NCBI RefSeq assembly: GCF_020194955.2
Contig: NZ_JAFCIY020000039.1
Location: forward strand, 1 to 64,000
Source of the DNA: Desulfuromonas sp. CSMB_57
Lineage (GTDB): Bacteria > Desulfobacterota > Desulfuromonadia > Desulfuromonadales > Syntrophotaleaceae
Direction of reading: 5' to 3'
DNA: 64,000 nt
Shown here: positions 10,841 to 18,720 of the stretch, piece by piece
Layout: every line of letters begins with the position of its first letter
How positions within the stretch are numbered: position 1 is the first letter of the stretch
Notes under the pieces: model-generated
The model's database searches: none
Told to the model about the DNA's origin: nothing
Seen by the model: the letters and a program-made list of their open reading frames with translations, nothing else
Position numbers and translations under genes: made by a program

Positions 10841-12346
10841 CTACAGCAGCGGCTCCAGGGGCAGCAGTTGCAGCAGGAAGACCTTGATGCGTTTTGCCAG
10901 GGAGGCGAAACGATCCGGGCCGGCGGCGGCGTTCCAGCTGTTTTCCGGGTCCATGTCCTGCTCGATGCTGTTTTCCACCTGGGCGGCAAGCTGCCGGTTC
11001 TCGACCAGGATGCCCACCTCCGTATTGAGGTTGGCGGAGCGGGGGTCGAGGTTGAAGGTGCCGATGAACAGGGTTTCGCCGTCGACGACCAGGGTCTTGG
11101 CGTGGACGGCGAACACCGGCGCCTTGTCCTCCAGTTGCGGATAGCGCTCGATGAGGGCGCGCTTGATGGCGGGATCGGGCTTGAACTCGTAGATCCGGAT
11201 ACCGCTGTTGATGAGACGCCGGCGCTGTTTGCGGTAGCCGCTGAAGGCCATCAGATTGTCCGTGGAGGACAGGGAATTGGTGGAGATGCGCACCTCGACG
11301 CCGCGTTGCACCAGGCTGTCAAACAGCTCGAAGCCGCCCTCGGGCATGATCAGGTAGGGTGACTGAATGGTCACCCTTTGTTTTGCCCGGCGCAGCAGGT
11401 CGGCCAGTTCGGTGGTGGTCCGGCCGCCGCAGGAAAGCCCTCTGCGCTGCTCGTTTTTCCCCGGCAAATCGCTGAGAAAACGGACCTCCTCCCAAACCAT
11501 TCCACTCAGCATGCGGTCCAGGTTGCGCGGCAGATCTCCGAGGGCTTCGCGCACCTCCGGGGCGAAATTTTCCGGGTCGCCGGCATAACGGCGCAGGTGG
11601 TCGTAGACGGCCCGGGTCCGCTCCGGGTCCATGTCCCGCAGTTCCCGGGTCAGCAGTTTTTCCACCGGTACCGCCAGGGGACTTGCCCAGAAGCGGTCGA
11701 AACTCTCCTCCATGTCCGCCACCACCGGCCCGACCACCAGCACGTCTCGATCGCGGAAGTTATAGCGGTGATCGTAGTCGAAATACTCATCCGCCATGTT
11801 GCGGCCGCCGGTGATGCCGACGGTGCCGTCGAACAGGGCGGTCTTGTCATGCATGCGCTGATTGACGGCGCGCAGGGCGGTAAGGGCGTTAAGGATGCGT
11901 TTCAGCCTGGAGGTGCCGACGGTGACCTTCGGGTTGTAGATGCGGATGTCGATGTTCGGATGCTGCACCAGGGCCAGCAGAGCGGCGGGCGGCGCATCGA
12001 TGAGCAGATCGTCGACCAGCACCCGCACCTTGACGCCGCGGTCGGCCGCCCGCAGCAGGGCTTCGCTGGCCAGAATGCCGATGTTGTCCGTGCTCCAGAT
12101 AAAGTACTGGATGTCGATGCTGGAACGGGCCTGGTCGGCCAGCCAAGCCCGGGCCAGCAATGATTCTTCGCCCTTCTCCAGCACGTAGACCCCGGATTTT
12201 CCATGAGGGCCGCCGCCGGTTCCCCGGCTCATGAGCGCCAGCAGGGCTGCGGTGGAACGCGGTGCTTCATCCGCGCCCTTTAACGGAGCGGCCATGAGCA
12301 GCAACAGCAGGCAGCAAAGACAGGATGGAGCCATGCGCATGGGCAT
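10841..12346 (-). CDS. phospholipase D-family protein (ClsC-like)
   Basis: A 501-residue protein with an N-terminal signal or anchor (about residues 8-24, Cys- and Leu-rich) and two HKD half-sites: MHDKTALFDGTVGITGGRN and VHAKTLVVDGETLFIGTFN, each followed by a tract typical of PLD enzymes. Such proteins act as periplasmic or membrane phospholipases or cardiolipin synthases. It lies 58 bp downstream of the GH3-like gene on the same strand and may be the last gene of that operon. The exact substrate is not shown. Confidence 0.8.
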   Translation of the reverse strand: MPMRMAPSCLCCLLLLLMAAPLKGADEAPRSTAALLALMSRGTGGGPHGKSGVYVLEKGEESLLARAWLADQARSSIDIQYFIWSTDNIGILASEALLRAADRGVKVRVLVDDLLIDAPPAALLALVQHPNIDIRIYNPKVTVGTSRLKRILNALTALRAVNQRMHDKTALFDGTVGITGGRNMADEYFDYDHRYNFRDRDVLVVGPVVADMEESFDRFWASPLAVPVEKLLTRELRDMDPERTRAVYDHLRRYAGDPENFAPEVREALGDLPRNLDRMLSGMVWEEVRFLSDLPGKNEQRRGLSCGGRTTTELADLLRRAKQRVTIQSPYLIMPEGGFELFDSLVQRGVEVRISTNSLSSTDNLMAFSGYRKQRRRLINSGIRIYEFKPDPAIKRALIERYPQLEDKAPVFAVHAKTLVVDGETLFIGTFNLDPRSANLNTEVGILVENRQLAAQVENSIEQDMDPENSWNAAAGPDRFASLAKRIKVFLLQLLPLEPLL

Positions 12347-12404
12347 ATCTTCCTGATCGGTTGAGGGTGATGGGTTCCAATGGCCATGAGGACTGCCCGG
12401 GCGA

Positions 12405-14066
12405 TCACCACAACATGGAGCCGTCGAAAAATTTAGTCCAGCCCGTTGCGGGATGCAGCACCCGGGGTTTTACATCGCCGAGGCGTTGTCCGCGGGCGGC
12501 GCAGCCGTGCAGGTAGGTTTCGCGGCCGTTGGCGGTGATTCTGAACACCCGCACTGGTGCCAGCTGTCCCAGATCCCGGCAATAGCGATAGTGGAAATTG
12601 TCGCCGAGGTGTTCCTCAAACCGCTCCCCGCACCGTCGCAGTTGCTCCTCATGGGCGGCGGCGTCTTCGAGGTACAGGACATAGGCGGGCGGCGGGCCTC
12701 CATCCAGGGCGAGCATTGCGAAAGCCGGCCGCAGGCCGAACTCGGCCAGAGACTGGCGCAGGGCGCCGTCGACATGCTGCTCATGGAGCTTCTCGCCGAA
12801 ATGGTCGGCGATGCCGTCCTCCCTGCCGACGAAACGCAACCGGGGCACGCTGCGGTAGAAGCCCGTCACCTGTACCAGGTCGCGCAGGCGGTAACGATAC
12901 AGCCCGCCGGCGGTGGTCAGCACCAGAGAGTAAGTTTGTCCATCCTCGAGTTGGTGCAGCAGGCGGAACCCGCCGCCGTCGCCGGGCAGAAACTCGAAAA
13001 AATGGCTGCGCAGGGCCGGCAGACAGCCGCCGGCCATGACCGGCAGGGTGACGAAGCCTTCCGTAGCCAGCAAGCCCTTGCCCTGGATGGTCGCCTGCGG
13101 GAAGAGGTCGGCCAATTCGGCGGCCGGCTCGGCAGCGGCGCCGTCGCGCCAGCAGCTGATCAACCGCAGATGGGGCCAGAGGGCCTGGTGCACGGCAGCC
13201 GGGTTCGGAGGGTCGGCGAAAGCAGCGCGAACTTCTCCGGCGCGGACGGCATCCGGGCGCAGATGTCTGGTCAGTGTGGTCTGCAAAGGTTCGGTCAGGG
13301 ATTGCGGCGTGCTCAGGGTGCCGCGGGCCAGGTCCCCGGCCAATTGCGGCCACCAGCGCTGCAGATGGCCGCACAGCAGGATCAGAAAGGTCGGATTCCA
13401 GACGGAGATCAGGGCCAGGTTGCGGCTGCGCAGCAGGAACAGCAGGGTCGCATACCAGAAACTGTCCATGTCGCGAACCTGTTTGACTTCGGCCGGTACC
13501 GCCTGGGTGGCGCGCACCAGCCAGCCCTTGAATCCGCCCAGGTAGTCGCTGTCGTCCTCGAAGCCGACGGGTATCCCGCCCGCCGTACGCTCCGCCTGCC
13601 GGGCGGCCGGCGTCACCGACCAGTAGCTCTGGCCCCCCAGCAGGGCCGGCATGCTGCGGAACAGGTCGGCCATCCAGGGGGCAATGCCGCGCTGGAACTG
13701 GGTTTTGAGTCCCCGGGTGTAGGGGATCAGCTTCGAGGCCGTCGCGGAACCGCTGGTCGGTTCCAGCAGCAGCACCGGTTCCGCCGTCAGCACCATCGCT
13801 TCGCCGTCGGCAATAAGCCGGATATAGGGTTCGAAGTCCTCATAATCGGCCAGGGGCACGGCGCGTTGATAATCCTCGATGGAGCGAATGGCATCAAAGC
13901 CGTGGCGGCGACCGAAGACGGTGGCGGTGTTCTGCCGCAAAATGTCCCGCAACACCGCTTCCTGAGCGGCGGCGCTGTTACCGAGGGCCCGGTGGAACCG
14001 GCGCGACTCCGGCAGGGTCGACAGATACCAGAGGCTGTTGGCCAGCAGGCAGCGCAGGCGGCTCAT
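12405..14066 (-). CDS. GH3-like acyl-adenylating/amide synthase family protein
   Basis: A 553-residue GH3 auxin-responsive-promoter family protein. Plant GH3 enzymes adenylate acyl acids and join them to amino acids. The ATP-binding stretch is seen as LLEPTSGSATASKLIPYT (about residues 100-117); C-terminal blocks LYRYRLRDLVQVTGFY and LRFVGREDGIADHFGEKL are typical of the family. No signal peptide. The start overlaps the upstream stop by 4 bp (ATGA), so translation is coupled to the unknown gene before it. The acid and amine substrates are unknown. Confidence 0.85.
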   Translation of the reverse strand: MSRLRCLLANSLWYLSTLPESRRFHRALGNSAAAQEAVLRDILRQNTATVFGRRHGFDAIRSIEDYQRAVPLADYEDFEPYIRLIADGEAMVLTAEPVLLLEPTSGSATASKLIPYTRGLKTQFQRGIAPWMADLFRSMPALLGGQSYWSVTPAARQAERTAGGIPVGFEDDSDYLGGFKGWLVRATQAVPAEVKQVRDMDSFWYATLLFLLRSRNLALISVWNPTFLILLCGHLQRWWPQLAGDLARGTLSTPQSLTEPLQTTLTRHLRPDAVRAGEVRAAFADPPNPAAVHQALWPHLRLISCWRDGAAAEPAAELADLFPQATIQGKGLLATEGFVTLPVMAGGCLPALRSHFFEFLPGDGGGFRLLHQLEDGQTYSLVLTTAGGLYRYRLRDLVQVTGFYRSVPRLRFVGREDGIADHFGEKLHEQHVDGALRQSLAEFGLRPAFAMLALDGGPPPAYVLYLEDAAAHEEQLRRCGERFEEHLGDNFHYRYCRDLGQLAPVRVFRITANGRETYLHGCAARGQRLGDVKPRVLHPATGWTKFFDGSMLW

Positions 14067-14887
14067 GGGGCACCGTTGCCTTGCAGACCCAGCATGCGGC
14101 GGCCGGCCGCGGTCAGGTTTTCAAGGCTGACTTGGGCCAGGCAGGCCAGTTCGTCGCCGCGGATATGGCCGGGGTTGGCCTGCTGGAAAAAGGCGATGTG
14201 GGGATCCCGCAATCTTTGCGCCGTAACCTCCGCCAGCCCAGTTCTCAGGGGGGTGGCCCGGTGCAGTCGCACCACTCCGTGGTCGGCATCGAACTCCTCC
14301 GGAAACTTGCGCCGGGCCAACACCTCGAGGATGGGGCGCAGGGCCGCCGCGTGATCCTGGCCGTGGCCGGGATAGAAGGTGCGGAAGAATACCGGCAGAA
14401 AGCGGTAGGTCTTGTATCCCGAACAGATGAGGAACCAGTACACCGGGCGATCCCGGATTTCCTCCGCCAGGGCAAAGACCAGGCGGCCCCACAGGCGCGG
14501 CAGGACCGTCTCCCCCCAGAAGGACCGGCTGATGACCGTGTCGCCGGAGAAGAAGGCAATCAGGGGTTGGTCGTCGACCACCTCCTCCATCCGCATGAGG
14601 GTGGAAAAGCCCTGCAGCGTGCCCTGCTCCCGTTCGTGGAGTAGAATCACCCACTCCTTTTCGGCCAGGTCCCCCTCGAAACTGCACCGGCCTACATTGT
14701 CGTAGGACGCGGTCATGAGTTGCAACATGGCGTCCCGTTCCGCTTCCGTTAAGGCCGTGACGGGCTTCACCGTTCCCGCCAGGCGCTCCGCCGCCAGGGT
14801 TGGCGGCAACAGGTGCCCGGTCGCCGTCCCGGGCCGTTCAGAGGGTGGCGATTTCGACCTGGCTGTTTCGTCCATCGAGGCGGTCAT
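14063..14887 (-). CDS. unknown protein in radical SAM/GH3 operon
   Basis: A 274-residue soluble protein that I do not recognise. It has an acidic N-terminal half, a hydrophobic-aromatic stretch around FFSGDTVISRSFWGE, and a block FLICSGYKTYRFLPVFFRTFYP that looks conserved in kind. Weak overall resemblance to an acetyltransferase fold cannot be excluded. The start at 14887 is chosen for GGGAG 8 bp upstream and gives a 50-bp overlap with the GNAT gene. It ends in an ATGA overlap with the GH3-like gene, so it is surely part of the same transcript. Confidence 0.7.
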   Translation of the reverse strand: MTASMDETARSKSPPSERPGTATGHLLPPTLAAERLAGTVKPVTALTEAERDAMLQLMTASYDNVGRCSFEGDLAEKEWVILLHEREQGTLQGFSTLMRMEEVVDDQPLIAFFSGDTVISRSFWGETVLPRLWGRLVFALAEEIRDRPVYWFLICSGYKTYRFLPVFFRTFYPGHGQDHAAALRPILEVLARRKFPEEFDADHGVVRLHRATPLRTGLAEVTAQRLRDPHIAFFQQANPGHIRGDELACLAQVSLENLTAAGRRMLGLQGNGAP

Positions 14888-15950
14888 GGAAGGTGCTCCC
14901 GTTATCCCAGCCGACGGTATAGAGCCGGCTGACGTAATCGATATGGCTGTAGCGGCGCGCCACGCCCAGCAAGGGATCGCCGGCACTGAAGCCGGCCATG
15001 AGAAAAGCCAGTTGGCGCTCCCTGGCGGTGCGCAATTGACGGCGCAGCAACAGGTCGAAGACCGCCGCATCGTTCTCGGCGATGCAGTGCAGTGCGGCAT
15101 AGCCCATGGGAATGACGGCTCCCGGTGGCGGCAGGGGCAGTAAACCGCGCAGGCGGTTATAACCGTTATACAGGGGGCGCCCCCAGCGCAGCAGACCTTG
15201 GTAGCCGCGCACCACCGATTGTTTGAACCCGCCCTGTTCCCAGAGTCCCAGGATGCCGACCAGGCGACCCCGGCGCAGGGCGATTAGCAGGTCCTGGCGC
15301 CCCAAGCCGCGCAGAAGTCCGCTTTCAGCACCAAAATCGGCCACCGTGAGCACCGGGAAAAACTGCCGCAGGGATCCCTGCCGGTTGAGAAAAGCGACCA
15401 GATCTTCCAGATCGATGTCGTCGCCCCGGCGGATTTCGCAGCCGGCCGAGGCCGGCTGTCCTGTGTCGCGGCTGTGCAGCGCCAGGGTATGCAGGCGCTC
15501 CAGGGGACGGTAGCGGGGAAAATGGCGGCGCGCCCGGGTCACCAACACCCCTTCGGCCTCCCGGTTGCCTTCGATGATGGTGGTCAGATAGCCCTGTACC
15601 CGCCGGTCCTGGTGCAGTTCCCATAGACAGCGGAAGCCGCCCGCGACCAGCCAGCGGGCCCGGAAGCGATGGTCCACCCGCAGTTGCCCGAGATAGCCGA
15701 CGGTTTCCGGTCGGCCGTTGATGAAGCGCCGCCGCAGGGCGCGGCAGGCCATGGCGGCTACCGCGCCGCTCGGCAGATGGCGCGCGACCAGGGTCTGGCA
15801 GCCGTCGCCCAACACCTCGCAGCCGAGAAAGTAGGACGGCGCCCGCTCATAGCTGATGGTGACGCTGCCGGGCACCGGATTGTCCCGCAGCAGGCGGAGA
15901 ATGGCGGCATCGTCGGCCGGGGTCGCCAGTTCGAAGGCAAATTCCGTCAT
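14838..15950 (-). CDS. GNAT-family N-acyltransferase-like protein
   Basis: A 370-residue protein. The N-terminal 150 residues read as a GNAT domain: FELATPADDAAILRLL at the start, the VAAMACRALRRRFINGRP strand and a GYLGQLRVDHRFRARWLV segment where the acetyl-CoA-binding motif is expected. The C-terminal 200 residues are of unknown type. Start at 15950 overlaps the radical SAM stop by 4 bp (ATGA). The acceptor is unknown; the operon suggests an amine or amino-acid-derived intermediate. Confidence 0.75.
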   Translation of the reverse strand: MTEFAFELATPADDAAILRLLRDNPVPGSVTISYERAPSYFLGCEVLGDGCQTLVARHLPSGAVAAMACRALRRRFINGRPETVGYLGQLRVDHRFRARWLVAGGFRCLWELHQDRRVQGYLTTIIEGNREAEGVLVTRARRHFPRYRPLERLHTLALHSRDTGQPASAGCEIRRGDDIDLEDLVAFLNRQGSLRQFFPVLTVADFGAESGLLRGLGRQDLLIALRRGRLVGILGLWEQGGFKQSVVRGYQGLLRWGRPLYNGYNRLRGLLPLPPPGAVIPMGYAALHCIAENDAAVFDLLLRRQLRTARERQLAFLMAGFSAGDPLLGVARRYSHIDYVSRLYTVGWDNGSTFHDRLDGRNSQVEIATL

Positions 15951-17341
15951 GATTGTTCCTCCGCGGGGACCGGGTTGGCGGCCAAGGTGCCGTCCACGGT
16001 CAACAGCGGAATGCTGCAGCCTTCGTCACCGAGGGGATACTGGCGCCGTTGCAGCACCTCCCTGCGCATCAGCAGGTTGATGACGAAGAAGTGGCCCCAC
16101 ATGAACAGGCTGCGGCTGTTGACCCGGAAATCCAAGCTGCGGCGCAGGATGGAAGGCAGACCGAAAAATCCCCGGCGGGCGTCGATGCAGGATTCTTCCA
16201 GGGCCTGCGGGGTGATGCCGGCCGGGGTGAAAGGCAGCATGCCGTAGCGGTAGGCGGGGTCCAGCCACCAGCGCTCGAAAAGGAGTCGGCCCTCCCGTTC
16301 GAGCCGTTGATAGAGGGGGGTGCCGGGGAAGGGCGTCAGGTGGTTGAAGGCGGCCAGGTAGAAGCGCTGCCGGGCGGCGAAGGCCCGCGCCTGGTCGAGG
16401 CTGGCGGCGGAGTCGCCGTCGTAGCCGAAGACGAAGGTGACGTAAAGGCGGATGCCCTGGCGCCGCAGGTTGGCCAGGGCCGTCTCGTAGCTGCCCCGGG
16501 CGGTGGCAAAGCCCTTGCCCATGCTTGCCAGGGTGTCCAGATCCAGGCTTTCCAGGCCCATGAGCAGCCCCTGGCAGCCGCTCTGCGCCAGCAGGCCGAG
16601 GAGTTCTTCGTCGAAGGCGGCATCGATCCCGGCCTGGCCGACCCAGCGGATTCGCAGGGGGATGAGGGCGCGCAGCAGTTCCTTGGCCCGCGGCGGGTCG
16701 GCGACGATGTTGTCGTCGACGAAAAAGATCAGGGGCTTTTTGATGCCGCGCAGTTCCTCGACCACCTCGTCCACCGGGCGCCAGCGATGGGTGCGGCCGA
16801 AGAAGGTCTGGATGGCACAGAATTCGCACGGATGTGGGCAGCCGCGGCCGGTCTCCACCAGGGCCACGGGCAGATAGTTCTTGCCGGCAAAGATGCGGCG
16901 ATCCGGGGTGCTGCCCGCCAGGGACGGCCGCCTGTCGCTCTGGTAGCGGCGTGCCAGGCGGCCCCGGCGAAAATCGTCGACGACCCGGGGCCAGAGGCCT
17001 TCCGCCTCGCCGACCACCACCGCCTCGGCATAGTTGGCCACTTCGTCGGGCATCAGGGTGGCGTGGAATCCCCCCATGACCACGGGCACCCCCCGGCGCC
17101 GGTATTCGCCGGCAATCTGGTAGGCGCGTCGGGCCGTGTAGGTTTCCACGGTGATGGCCACCAGGTCGGTGGGCTCGTCATAGGGGATGGGCTCCATCCG
17201 ATCATCGAAGAAGCGGATGGTCACATCCGGCGGCGTCAGGGCCGCCAGCAGCGCCGGCGCCAGGGGCTCCATCTGCCAGGTGCGGATGTAGGGCGCGCCG
17301 CGCCGGCGCCCCATGCAGGGTTGGATCAGGGTCAGCCGCAC
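15947..17341 (-). CDS. B12-binding domain radical SAM protein (second of pair)
   Basis: A 464-residue protein with an N-terminal cobalamin-binding-like Rossmann domain (LTLIQPCMG, then VVMGGFHATLMPDE) and a radical SAM core with the [4Fe-4S] motif CPHPCEFC at about residue 180. The family does difficult methylations or ring and chain rearrangements. Start is GTG at 17341: GGGAGG lies 7 bp upstream and the protein then aligns with its upstream paralog. It overlaps that gene by 10 bp and the GNAT gene by 4 bp. Substrate unknown. Confidence 0.9.
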   Translation of the reverse strand: MRLTLIQPCMGRRRGAPYIRTWQMEPLAPALLAALTPPDVTIRFFDDRMEPIPYDEPTDLVAITVETYTARRAYQIAGEYRRRGVPVVMGGFHATLMPDEVANYAEAVVVGEAEGLWPRVVDDFRRGRLARRYQSDRRPSLAGSTPDRRIFAGKNYLPVALVETGRGCPHPCEFCAIQTFFGRTHRWRPVDEVVEELRGIKKPLIFFVDDNIVADPPRAKELLRALIPLRIRWVGQAGIDAAFDEELLGLLAQSGCQGLLMGLESLDLDTLASMGKGFATARGSYETALANLRRQGIRLYVTFVFGYDGDSAASLDQARAFAARQRFYLAAFNHLTPFPGTPLYQRLEREGRLLFERWWLDPAYRYGMLPFTPAGITPQALEESCIDARRGFFGLPSILRRSLDFRVNSRSLFMWGHFFVINLLMRREVLQRRQYPLGDEGCSIPLLTVDGTLAANPVPAEEQS

Positions 17342-18720
17342 CGGAAATCCTCCCGGCCAAAGGCCGCCCGATACCAGTTTTCCTGCGGCGGCGAACCGGG
17401 CCGTGCGACCGACCAGGGTTGGGCGAAGCGCGGTTCGCGGTAGAGGCGGCGAACGAACCGCCGATAGGTCAGGTTGCCCAGGGCGTTGATGGCCGAGTTG
17501 GTGGTCAGACCGCGCATGCGGCGAACGATGGAGCCGATTTTGAAGGTCTCCCGGTAGGCCCACTTGAAGCCCCGGTACAGTTCCTCCGGGGTCATGCGGG
17601 CCGGTTGGATGACTACGTGCATGGTGTCGTAATCATCCCAGTTGTAGCTCAGGATGCGACCTTCCCGGTGCAGGCGCCGGAACAGTTCGGTGCCGGGATA
17701 GGGGGTGTAGAGGGAATAGCGCGGGATGTCGATGCGCAGGGCATTGACCCGTTCGACGGTGCGCTGAAAGGTTTCCGTGGTGTCATGGTCGAAGCCGAAC
17801 ACGAAGCAGCCCTGGACGCTGATGCCCAAATCGTGCATGGTGCGGACCAGAATGTCGTAATCCACCGGCTTGTTGAACCCCTTGCGAATGTCCTGCAGTA
17901 CCGTCCGACTGTCCGATTCAAAGCCGAACAGCAGGTAGCGGCAGCCCGAAGCCCGCAGCAACTCCAAAAGTTCCGGATCATGGGCGATGTCCACGGTGGC
18001 CAGGCCTCCCCACTGTTTTTTCAAGGGGATCATGGCTCGGAACAGTTCCTTGGCGTAGTCCGGATCCTCGGCGATGCTGACGTCGTTGAAGACCAGATAG
18101 CGGCCCCGGGTCAGGCGGATGTCGCGGATGACGTCCGCCACCGGCCGTTTCAGAAAGTCCGGCCAGACGGCCGGGACGGTGCAGAAATCGCAGACCTTCT
18201 TGCAGCCGCGGGTGGCCTGCACCGTATCGGGCAGCATGTAGCCGGAACGGCGGTGCAGATCCCGGCGCGGCGGCGGCACCTGGGCCAACACGCCGTCGCC
18301 GATGGCGTGCTCCTCGTAGACGCGCTGCAGGCGGCCGCGCCGGAAATCCTCCAGCAGCCGCGGCCAGGCCTGTTCCCCCCGGCCGATGACGATGGCGTCG
18401 GCATGGCGGATGGCCTCCCCCGGGAGGATGGTGACATGCACGCCGCCCAGCACCACGGGGATGCCCCGGGCCCGGAAATGGTCGGCCAGTTCGTAGCCGC
18501 TGTTGGCGCAGCCGGTGATGAGGCTGATGGCCACCAGGTCGGCATCGGCATCGCGGGGAATGGGGTCGACGCTGCCGTCCACCAGTCGCACCTTCACCTC
18601 CGGCGGCGTCAGGGCGGCCAAGGTGCAGAGGGACAAAGGCATTTCGCGCATGGAGCGCACATGGGGGCCGAGGTGCAGCTTGTGCATGTGGGCGTCCGGC
18701 ATGATCATCAACAGCTTCAC
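17332..18720 (-). CDS. B12-binding domain radical SAM protein (first of pair)
   Basis: A 462-residue paralog of the next gene. The N-terminal B12-binding-like half starts MKLLMIMPDAHMHK and has VVLGGVHVTILPGEA; the cluster ligands are in TRGCKKVCDFC (about residues 181-191). The C-terminal third has the PYPGTELFRRL block common in this class. It is the first gene of a closely overlapping minus-strand operon running to 10841. The tandem pair suggests two successive radical steps on one substrate. Confidence 0.9.
   Translation of the reverse strand: MKLLMIMPDAHMHKLHLGPHVRSMREMPLSLCTLAALTPPEVKVRLVDGSVDPIPRDADADLVAISLITGCANSGYELADHFRARGIPVVLGGVHVTILPGEAIRHADAIVIGRGEQAWPRLLEDFRRGRLQRVYEEHAIGDGVLAQVPPPRRDLHRRSGYMLPDTVQATRGCKKVCDFCTVPAVWPDFLKRPVADVIRDIRLTRGRYLVFNDVSIAEDPDYAKELFRAMIPLKKQWGGLATVDIAHDPELLELLRASGCRYLLFGFESDSRTVLQDIRKGFNKPVDYDILVRTMHDLGISVQGCFVFGFDHDTTETFQRTVERVNALRIDIPRYSLYTPYPGTELFRRLHREGRILSYNWDDYDTMHVVIQPARMTPEELYRGFKWAYRETFKIGSIVRRMRGLTTNSAINALGNLTYRRFVRRLYREPRFAQPWSVARPGSPPQENWYRAAFGREDFRCG

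Follow-up and report, generated by a model that had tools for sequence, protein, structure and literature searches.

A three-gene core, encoding a GNAT-like protein, a 274-residue protein and an enzyme resembling GH3 acyl-acid amido synthetases, is portable among bacteria: the trio recurs in other phyla and on a plasmid, while the extra enzymes around it change. We describe this core in Desulfuromonas sp. CSMB_57, within a stretch of 64,000 nucleotides (contig NZ_JAFCIY020000039.1; hereafter the window). There, the trio belongs to a run of six genes, all on the minus strand, spanning positions 18720 to 10841. Two radical SAM genes (rSAM1 and rSAM2) precede the trio and a phospholipase D (PLD)-superfamily gene follows it. 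The initial annotation had proposed all six genes as the unit of an undescribed pathway. The genes are indeed conserved together, but the conserved unit is the trio of GNAT-like, 274-residue and GH3 proteins, not the six. In seven of ten loci the core has radical SAM genes next to it; these are absent beside the cores of Acinetobacter, Burkholderia and genome G305. Note that other genomes, and the stretches taken from them, are given G and L numbers where a name is needed.

The gene set is conserved in order and recurs across phyla

The order rSAM1-rSAM2-GNAT-274aa-GH3 is identical in genomes G188, G237 and G551. Identity to the window proteins, in these three, is 49-75% for rSAM1, 68-73% for rSAM2, 50-62% for the GNAT-like protein, 50-55% for the 274-residue protein and 54-63% for GH3. 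The GNAT-like and 274-residue genes overlap by exactly 50 bp also in G188, G237 and the Chloroflexaceae metagenome-assembled genome G655 (four loci with the window), though not in G551. The genes grouped by the initial annotation thus stay together elsewhere, being collinear in three genomes and recurring in other phyla.

The set has insertions in two Chloroflexota-group genomes (G655 and G924) and is reordered on a Citrobacter plasmid. G655 has rSAM2-GNAT-274aa-desaturase-GH3, with GH3 split over two contigs. One G655 contig breaks off within rSAM2, which leaves rSAM1 and PLD out of view there. G924 has rSAM1-rSAM2-desaturase, two inserted genes, GNAT, a Rieske gene, a SPASM-type radical SAM gene, a radical-SAM-like fragment, 274aa and GH3. 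Downstream of GH3, both G188 (L009 8692-11596) and G237 (L010 1122-4018) carry two further radical SAM genes and a small protein with no significant Pfam match. The further radical SAM genes of G237 gave no match to the B12 domain. No close copy of the second such gene was found in the window's genome (best 34%, partial), and none of the first in the window's 64 kb, where alone it was sought.

Within the class, the 274-residue protein was detected in three of 277 genomes (G000, G188 and G237). It was likewise detected in three of 395 genomes taken as a sample of the phylum (G000, G551 and, as a remote match, G305), three of 301 in the phylum of G655 (G655, G924 and a remote match in G725), one of the two in the family of G551 (G551 itself) and two of 99 G305 relatives (G305 itself plus a remote match in G1038). 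The protein is accordingly rare and patchy. A search of genome contigs with GH3 returned a single partial locus, in G655, and the 274-residue protein is there too.

In a plasmid collection, searched using tblastn, the 274-residue protein was found in 12 records, the GNAT-like protein in four and GH3 in seven. All three are present in four records: a Citrobacter portucalensis plasmid, Burkholderia arboris and two from Acinetobacter baumannii. We examined the Citrobacter and Burkholderia records and one from Acinetobacter (L026). The two Acinetobacter 'plasmid' records (NZ_CP104448.1 and NZ_CP064203.1), each ~4 Mb long, are probably chromosomes that have been mislabelled.

The Citrobacter plasmid (NZ_CP134684.1), typed as mobilizable IncF, has 274aa-GH3-rSAM-rSAM-GNAT-rSAM-rSAM-PAP2-hypothetical (L025 13262-25357). 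A radical SAM gene, the fifth, and a fatty acid desaturase gene lie on the opposite strand. Within the plasmid collection this cluster was found in its own record alone, and E. coli genomes held no close copy at megablast sensitivity. Burkholderia has 274aa-GNAT, then desaturase-GH3-Rieske, where GH3 and the Rieske gene overlap by ~8 bases. In A. baumannii NZ_CP104448.1 (L026 10632-17993), the order is HlyD-type, MFS-type, 274aa, GH3, outer-membrane efflux (OEP 155 bits) and GNAT; the MFS-type label was judged by eye from the start sequence. This interleaving of core and efflux genes suggests a dedicated tripartite exporter for the product. G305 has GH3, 274aa and a remote GNAT, the latter assigned via matches to the Burkholderia and G924 GNATs, together with two further genes (L015 11791-14519). 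These two gave no Pfam match at E<=0.1 and are condensation-domain-like by eye alone. Radical SAM matches were absent across 29 kb for the Burkholderia core, 29 kb for the Acinetobacter core and 19 kb for the G305 core. Altogether, the trio is present in ten loci: the window, G188, G237, G551, G655 (GH3 split), G924, G305, Citrobacter, Acinetobacter and Burkholderia.

Single core members were also encountered. The GNAT profile matches four of 271 class genomes, namely three cluster genomes and G054. In G054 (L048 1-1598; same taxonomic order as the window's organism), after the GNAT gene comes a radical SAM gene that shares 65% identity with the third Citrobacter one, and there the contig stops. 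This pair hints at a possible origin for the Citrobacter variant. In Azospirillum brasilense (L028 9947-10774), a relative of the 274-residue protein has no GNAT or GH3 detected within ~10 kb; the context was seen for one of the eight Azospirillum records that match. Hence, the 274-residue family may work outside the core too.

Core GH3 enzymes form a distinct clade

The window GH3 matches the N-terminal, central and C-terminal GH3 domains of Pfam with 182.1, 67.5 and 38.1 bits, each above the cut-off of 23.6, and is the single GH3 match in its genome. Its nucleotide-binding motifs are PTSGSATASK, GKGLLATEG and GLYRYRLRD, of which motif II is divergent. We placed it in a tree of 13 bacterial GH3s, drawn with midpoint rooting and without the split G655 copy. 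Nine trio-linked GH3s separate from the four others (G005, G093 and two from Streptomyces) with support of 1.000. The motif II pattern KGL-x-[AS]-T-E is present in all nine core GH3s and in none of the four unlinked ones. The G005 and G093 enzymes, which fall outside the core clade, are encoded in other gene contexts.

The nearest characterised GH3 relative is OlsH, an N-acyl-ornithine synthetase. It is the sole NCBIfam match of the window GH3 at E<=0.01, with 59.5 bits against an equivalog cut-off of 620. The Citrobacter and Burkholderia GH3s score 42.5 and 41 bits, and those of Acinetobacter, G305 and G924 have no OlsH match at E<=1e-8. According to PMC12493201, OlsH of Singulisphaera acidiphila is the lyso-ornithine lipid synthetase of an OlsH/OlsG/OlsI operon. 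It converts free fatty acid to N-acyl ornithine with ATP and Mg2+, depends on the motif I residue S115 and has the alpha/beta-hydrolase OlsI as its partner. The same source reports >7500 matches in a survey of bacterial GH3s, and considers that different N-acyl amino acids may be the products of further homologs. The core clade is a candidate for such enzymes.

Both OlsH and the window enzyme are bacterial GH3s, encoded in small operons, with three GH3 nucleotide motifs. The residue aligned with S115 is a serine in the window GH3. Amide formation has been demonstrated for OlsH and is predicted for the window enzyme. The two differ in motif II, which is TYPCSE in OlsH and GKGLLATEG in the window. 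Their partners differ also: a methyltransferase and an alpha/beta-hydrolase for OlsH, versus GNAT-like, 274-residue and radical SAM proteins here. The initial annotation expected the GH3 step to adenylate an acid and join it to an amine. Adenylation followed by amide formation fits both the motifs and the analogy with OlsH (PMC12493201).

The best PDB relatives of the window GH3 are the plant amido synthetases 7dk8 (E 2.6e-26) and 4epl (E 4.1e-25). Plant GH3s such as JAR1 and OsGH3.8 belong to the same Pfam family, and motif III (GLYRYRL-D) is kept in the window enzyme. Unlike them, the window GH3 is encoded in a bacterial operon and has a different motif II.

Two acyltransferase-like partners

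The other core members are two ACYLTRANSFERASE-like proteins, the GNAT-like and 274-residue proteins, whose window copies match nothing in Pfam at E<=1. For the GNAT-like protein, a profile of six relatives has a GNA1-type acetyltransferase chain as its best match in a PDB profile search (E=0.0016), and one of six members matched at E=0.0007. The Citrobacter relative passes the Acetyltransf_1 cut-off, with 21.0 against 20.7; its counterparts in Burkholderia and G054 match nothing in Pfam at E<=0.001. In the relatives of G237 and G655, the acyl-CoA loop (QGRG and QGQG, respectively) looks canonical.

The 274-residue protein was initially assigned to no known family. That description stands for the window copy, which matches nothing in Pfam or NCBIfam, but needs qualifying for its relatives, which match GNAT weakly. 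Briefly, one of six family members matches Acetyltransf_9 (E=0.0011) and the Citrobacter copy matches Acetyltransf_1 (E=0.041, weak). The Acinetobacter and Azospirillum copies gave no GNAT match in the Pfam scan. Alignments identify GFST, SGDT and YWxLI..GYKTY-like stretches conserved among close relatives. From the weak matches in relatives alone, the 274-residue protein is a probable divergent GNAT.

The radical SAM pair

rSAM1 matches Radical_SAM in Pfam with 46.3 bits and the B12-binding domain with 35.7, against a cut-off of 32.1. rSAM2 also has the Pfam radical SAM domain; its B12-binding score, 30.5, is just below the same cut-off. Both proteins have the CxxxCxxC motif. In a tree, rSAM1 and rSAM2 are two orthologous groups, split with support of 1.000. 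The rSAM1 proteins of G188 and G551 are in a different sub-branch from those of the window and G237, and the rSAM2 proteins of G188 and G237 are sisters. Because the rSAM1 sub-branches conflict with the rSAM2 sister pairing, the first radical SAM enzyme seems to have been swapped.

The best NCBIfam match of rSAM1 is HpnJ, with 101.1 of the 577.6 bits needed. For rSAM2, the scores are 83.5 for PhpK (cut-off 600), 80 for HpnJ (577.6) and 77 for the ladderane type (360). The window pair shares domain order and CxxxCxxC with HpnJ, AprD4, PhpK and ladderane-type proteins, and has, among its best relatives of solved structure by profile match, AprD4 (6fd2; 1.1e-19) and the tryptophan methyltransferase TsrM (6wte; 8.3e-10). 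Unlike the HpnJ, PhpK and ladderane-type proteins, the pair falls far under the equivalog or subfamily cut-offs and forms its own two orthologous groups. We rejected membership of the hopanoid, ladderane and PhpK families on these scores.

Operon layout and neighbouring genes

Features of the six-gene operon are listed in Table 1. The best start for rSAM2 is GTG at 17341, and gives a 10 bp overlap with rSAM1. The next overlaps are 4 bp (rSAM2 and GNAT-like), 50 bp (GNAT-like and 274-residue) and 4 bp (274-residue and GH3); a 58 bp gap separates GH3 from PLD. The operon is bounded by a divergent gene (19100, plus strand) and a convergent gene (ends 10739, plus strand). Our analysis confirms the six-gene operon. 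Pattern scans found no sigma-70-like promoter (0 versus 1.1 in shuffled sequences) and no excess of terminator-like sites (5 versus 5.8). Since neither pattern was convincing, co-transcription is inferred from gene spacing alone.

Table 1. The six operon genes, by position in the window
Gene	Coordinates	Strand	Features	Basis
rSAM1	17332..18720	-	Radical SAM with N-terminal B12-binding-type domain; CxxxCxxC at residues 173-180	Pfam, NCBIfam, tree
rSAM2	15947..17341	-	Second radical SAM, in an orthologous group apart from rSAM1; starts with GTG at 17341; CxxxCxxC at residues 168-175	
GNAT-like (P0003)	14838..15950	-	370 aa; member of conserved core	Profile and Pfam matches of relatives
274-aa protein (P0004)	14063..14887	-	Core member; probable divergent GNAT	Alignments; weak Acetyltransf matches in relatives
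GH3 acyl-acid amido synthetase-like	12405..14066	-	553 aa; core member	Pfam GH3 N, M and C domains; ATP motifs
PLD-superfamily protein	10841..12346	-	Hydrophobic N-terminus; two HxKxxxxD motifs; adjoins core, not a core member	Pfam PLDc_2

The PLD protein matches PLDc_2 with 130 bits over two PLDc stretches. By eye, it has two HxKxxxxD motifs and a hydrophobic, signal-like N-terminus. The motifs and domains are shared with cardiolipin synthase; the signal-like N-terminus is not, and the score is 109.3 against 290 bits. We rejected assignment as cardiolipin synthase on this equivalog score. PLD adjoins the core in three of the ten loci (the window, G188 and G237), on differing sides. In the class, 25 of 271 genomes encode a PLD homolog at E<=1e-100. 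Of the 22 genomes with PLD and no cluster, six loci were examined; none had a core gene near PLD, and one had a weak generic radical SAM match. This distribution rules out PLD as a core member. The initial annotation took PLD to hint at a membrane lipid. Because PLD is not specific to the cluster, it says little about a lipid product, and the hint is weak.

Other neighbours vary by locus. Genes of the FA_desaturase family lie in or beside the cores of G655, G924, Burkholderia and Citrobacter, and Rieske genes in or beside those of G924 and Burkholderia. Oxygen-dependent types (membrane desaturase-type oxidases and Rieske oxygenases) adjoin radical SAM genes in several relatives, and occur without them in Burkholderia. 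A PAP2-type gene is beside the Citrobacter core. The sole basis for a PAP2-like stretch in G551 is 33% identity, over 185 residues, to the Citrobacter PAP2; a Pfam scan of an overlapping open reading frame, in a different frame, found nothing. G551 also encodes an alpha/beta-hydrolase-methyltransferase fusion, 0.8 kb after GH3, and G237 has a monogalactosyldiacylglycerol (MGDG)-synthase-like neighbour.

A proposed pathway and its alternatives

Gene content, conservation, the GH3 ATP motifs and the core GH3 clade are our observations; the reactions, substrates and product proposed from here on are inferred. We suggest, with roughly even confidence for and against, that the pathway yields an acylated amide; an amphiphile, either aminolipid or lipoamide, is the likeliest kind. 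Its route would depend on GH3 and include two further acyl transfers and radical tailoring. GH3 would activate an acid using ATP and couple it to an amine. The GNAT-like and 274-residue proteins would act on the same scaffold, as acyltransferases dependent on acyl-coenzyme A (acyl-CoA) or acyl carrier protein. The two B12-binding-type radical SAM enzymes would modify carbons that are not activated, in either the acyl or the head part, by reactions such as C-methylation, cyclisation or desaturation. In the window's lineage, PLD may add a membrane head-group step. The Acinetobacter core, set among HlyD-type, MFS-type (by eye) and outer-membrane efflux genes, is what an exported product would lead one to expect. 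The initial biosynthetic reading is supported in part, by conserved linkage and the GH3 motifs, and weakened in its link from PLD to lipid. In the literature searched, from which subscription papers and preprints were mostly absent, we found no characterised cluster that matches and no description of this gene set.

Several observations weigh against this scheme. The equivalent of OlsH S115 is glycine in three of the nine core GH3s (G188, G237 and Citrobacter). In the window GNAT-like protein, the acyl-CoA loop is degenerate. A PDB profile search with the 274-residue protein gave no GNAT, and single-sequence AlphaFold models were uninformative, with a mean predicted local distance difference test score of 33.2 for the 274-residue protein and 35.4 for the GNAT-like protein. 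Relatives of the 274-residue protein stand without a nearby GNAT or GH3 in Azospirillum (L028), G725 (L021) and G1038 (L024), the last in a stretch of 3.4 kb where context is barely visible. Similarly, the G054 GNAT has no detected GH3 or 274-residue gene, in a genome that is 79% complete and with the contig end nearby; a GH3 search of G054 gave no match and it is not among the class genomes matching the 274-residue protein. AprD4 has a B12-type fold and is not known to use cobalamin. For this reason, 'B12-type' describes domain shape alone, and the domain is no proof that rSAM1 or rSAM2 uses cobalamin. Finally, the FA_desaturase family also includes amino-acid hydroxylases. For the 'desaturases' of G655 and G924, the top-scoring model is that of an arginine hydroxylase (64.7 and 55.5 of 380 bits), and their substrate may thus be an amino acid rather than a fatty chain.

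The last point bears on a different product. The same core could make a small, diffusible, secreted amide (a signal, metallophore or antibiotic-like compound), with the radical SAM, desaturase-type and Rieske enzymes tailoring an amino-acid or aromatic part. This is the main rival, which we think possible but less likely. The HlyD-type, outer-membrane efflux and, by eye, MFS-type genes with the Acinetobacter core would suit it. So would the arginine hydroxylase model nearest the G655 and G924 enzymes, albeit far under cut-off, and the patchy accessory distribution and plasmid copy fit secondary metabolism. Conversely, PLD (window, G188 and G237), PAP2-type genes (Citrobacter and G551) and the MGDG-synthase-like gene (G237) lean towards lipid, each weakly. 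Moreover, no convincing peptide-synthetase or polyketide domain was found among the neighbours scanned, which are part of the total, the two G305 genes being condensation-like by eye. On the sequence evidence, a lipid product is favoured. An ornithine-lipid pathway of the OlsH/OlsI type, where N-acyl ornithine produced by GH3 is O-acylated by a partner, seems improbable to us. OlsH, the characterised bacterial GH3 (PMC12493201), is the only NCBIfam match at E<=0.01, and the G551 hydrolase-methyltransferase fusion is reminiscent of OlsI plus OlsG. However, the window GH3 falls so far below the equivalog cut-off that strict membership was rejected on score, and the GH3s of Acinetobacter, G305, G924, Citrobacter and Burkholderia match OlsH no better. 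There is no OlsI-type alpha/beta-hydrolase among the six window genes, and the pathway as published leaves no room for the radical SAM genes or for two additional acyltransferase-like genes.

Two further explanations fare worse. A relationship to hopanoid side-chain or ladderane biosynthesis is very improbable. It draws on HpnJ being the best match of rSAM1, and on the PhpK, HpnJ and ladderane-type matches of rSAM2, all far short of their cut-offs; the Acinetobacter, Burkholderia and G305 cores do without any radical SAM match in the stretches searched. Least credible of all is that the genes are unrelated neighbours with no joint function. PLD is free-standing at the six cluster-free loci examined, as this would predict. 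Nonetheless, conservation already contradicts it: five genes are collinear in G188, G237 and G551 at 49-75% identity, the set recurs in other phyla, the 50-bp overlap is exact in four loci including the window, and a distinct GH3 clade is tied to the core.

The proposal of a tailored amphiphilic amide can be extended, more tentatively and with the balance of our judgement somewhat against. A mobile core of GH3, GNAT and divergent GNAT, crossing phyla, would make an undescribed class of tailored aminolipid or lipoamide. Depending on host, the skeleton would be altered by paired radical SAM enzymes or by oxygen-dependent oxidases, and the product of the Acinetobacter core would be cargo of an EmrAB-type pump. 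The L026 efflux genes may correspond to an EmrAB-like pump already investigated in drug and acid stress. The Acinetobacter genes A1S_1772/1773, on which there are papers, may likewise be the L026 pump genes, though those papers gave no proof of this. PMC5997985 lists a GH3 auxin-responsive promoter gene among predicted interactions that also involve an efflux protein and neighbours of no assigned role; this may be the L026 locus. Substrates of Acinetobacter EmrAB-like pumps are reported as unknown in PMC10812440.

Implications

We conclude that a GH3 subfamily is tied to two acyltransferase-like partners, from a Chloroflexaceae metagenome-assembled genome to an enterobacterial plasmid and Acinetobacter. 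This three-gene core is a candidate second GH3 route. The radical SAM, desaturase-type and Rieske neighbours suggest one scaffold that is decorated both with and without the use of oxygen. Should the Acinetobacter copy be functional, and its pump prove to be of the EmrAB-like kind, the core may also reveal what such a pump naturally exports.

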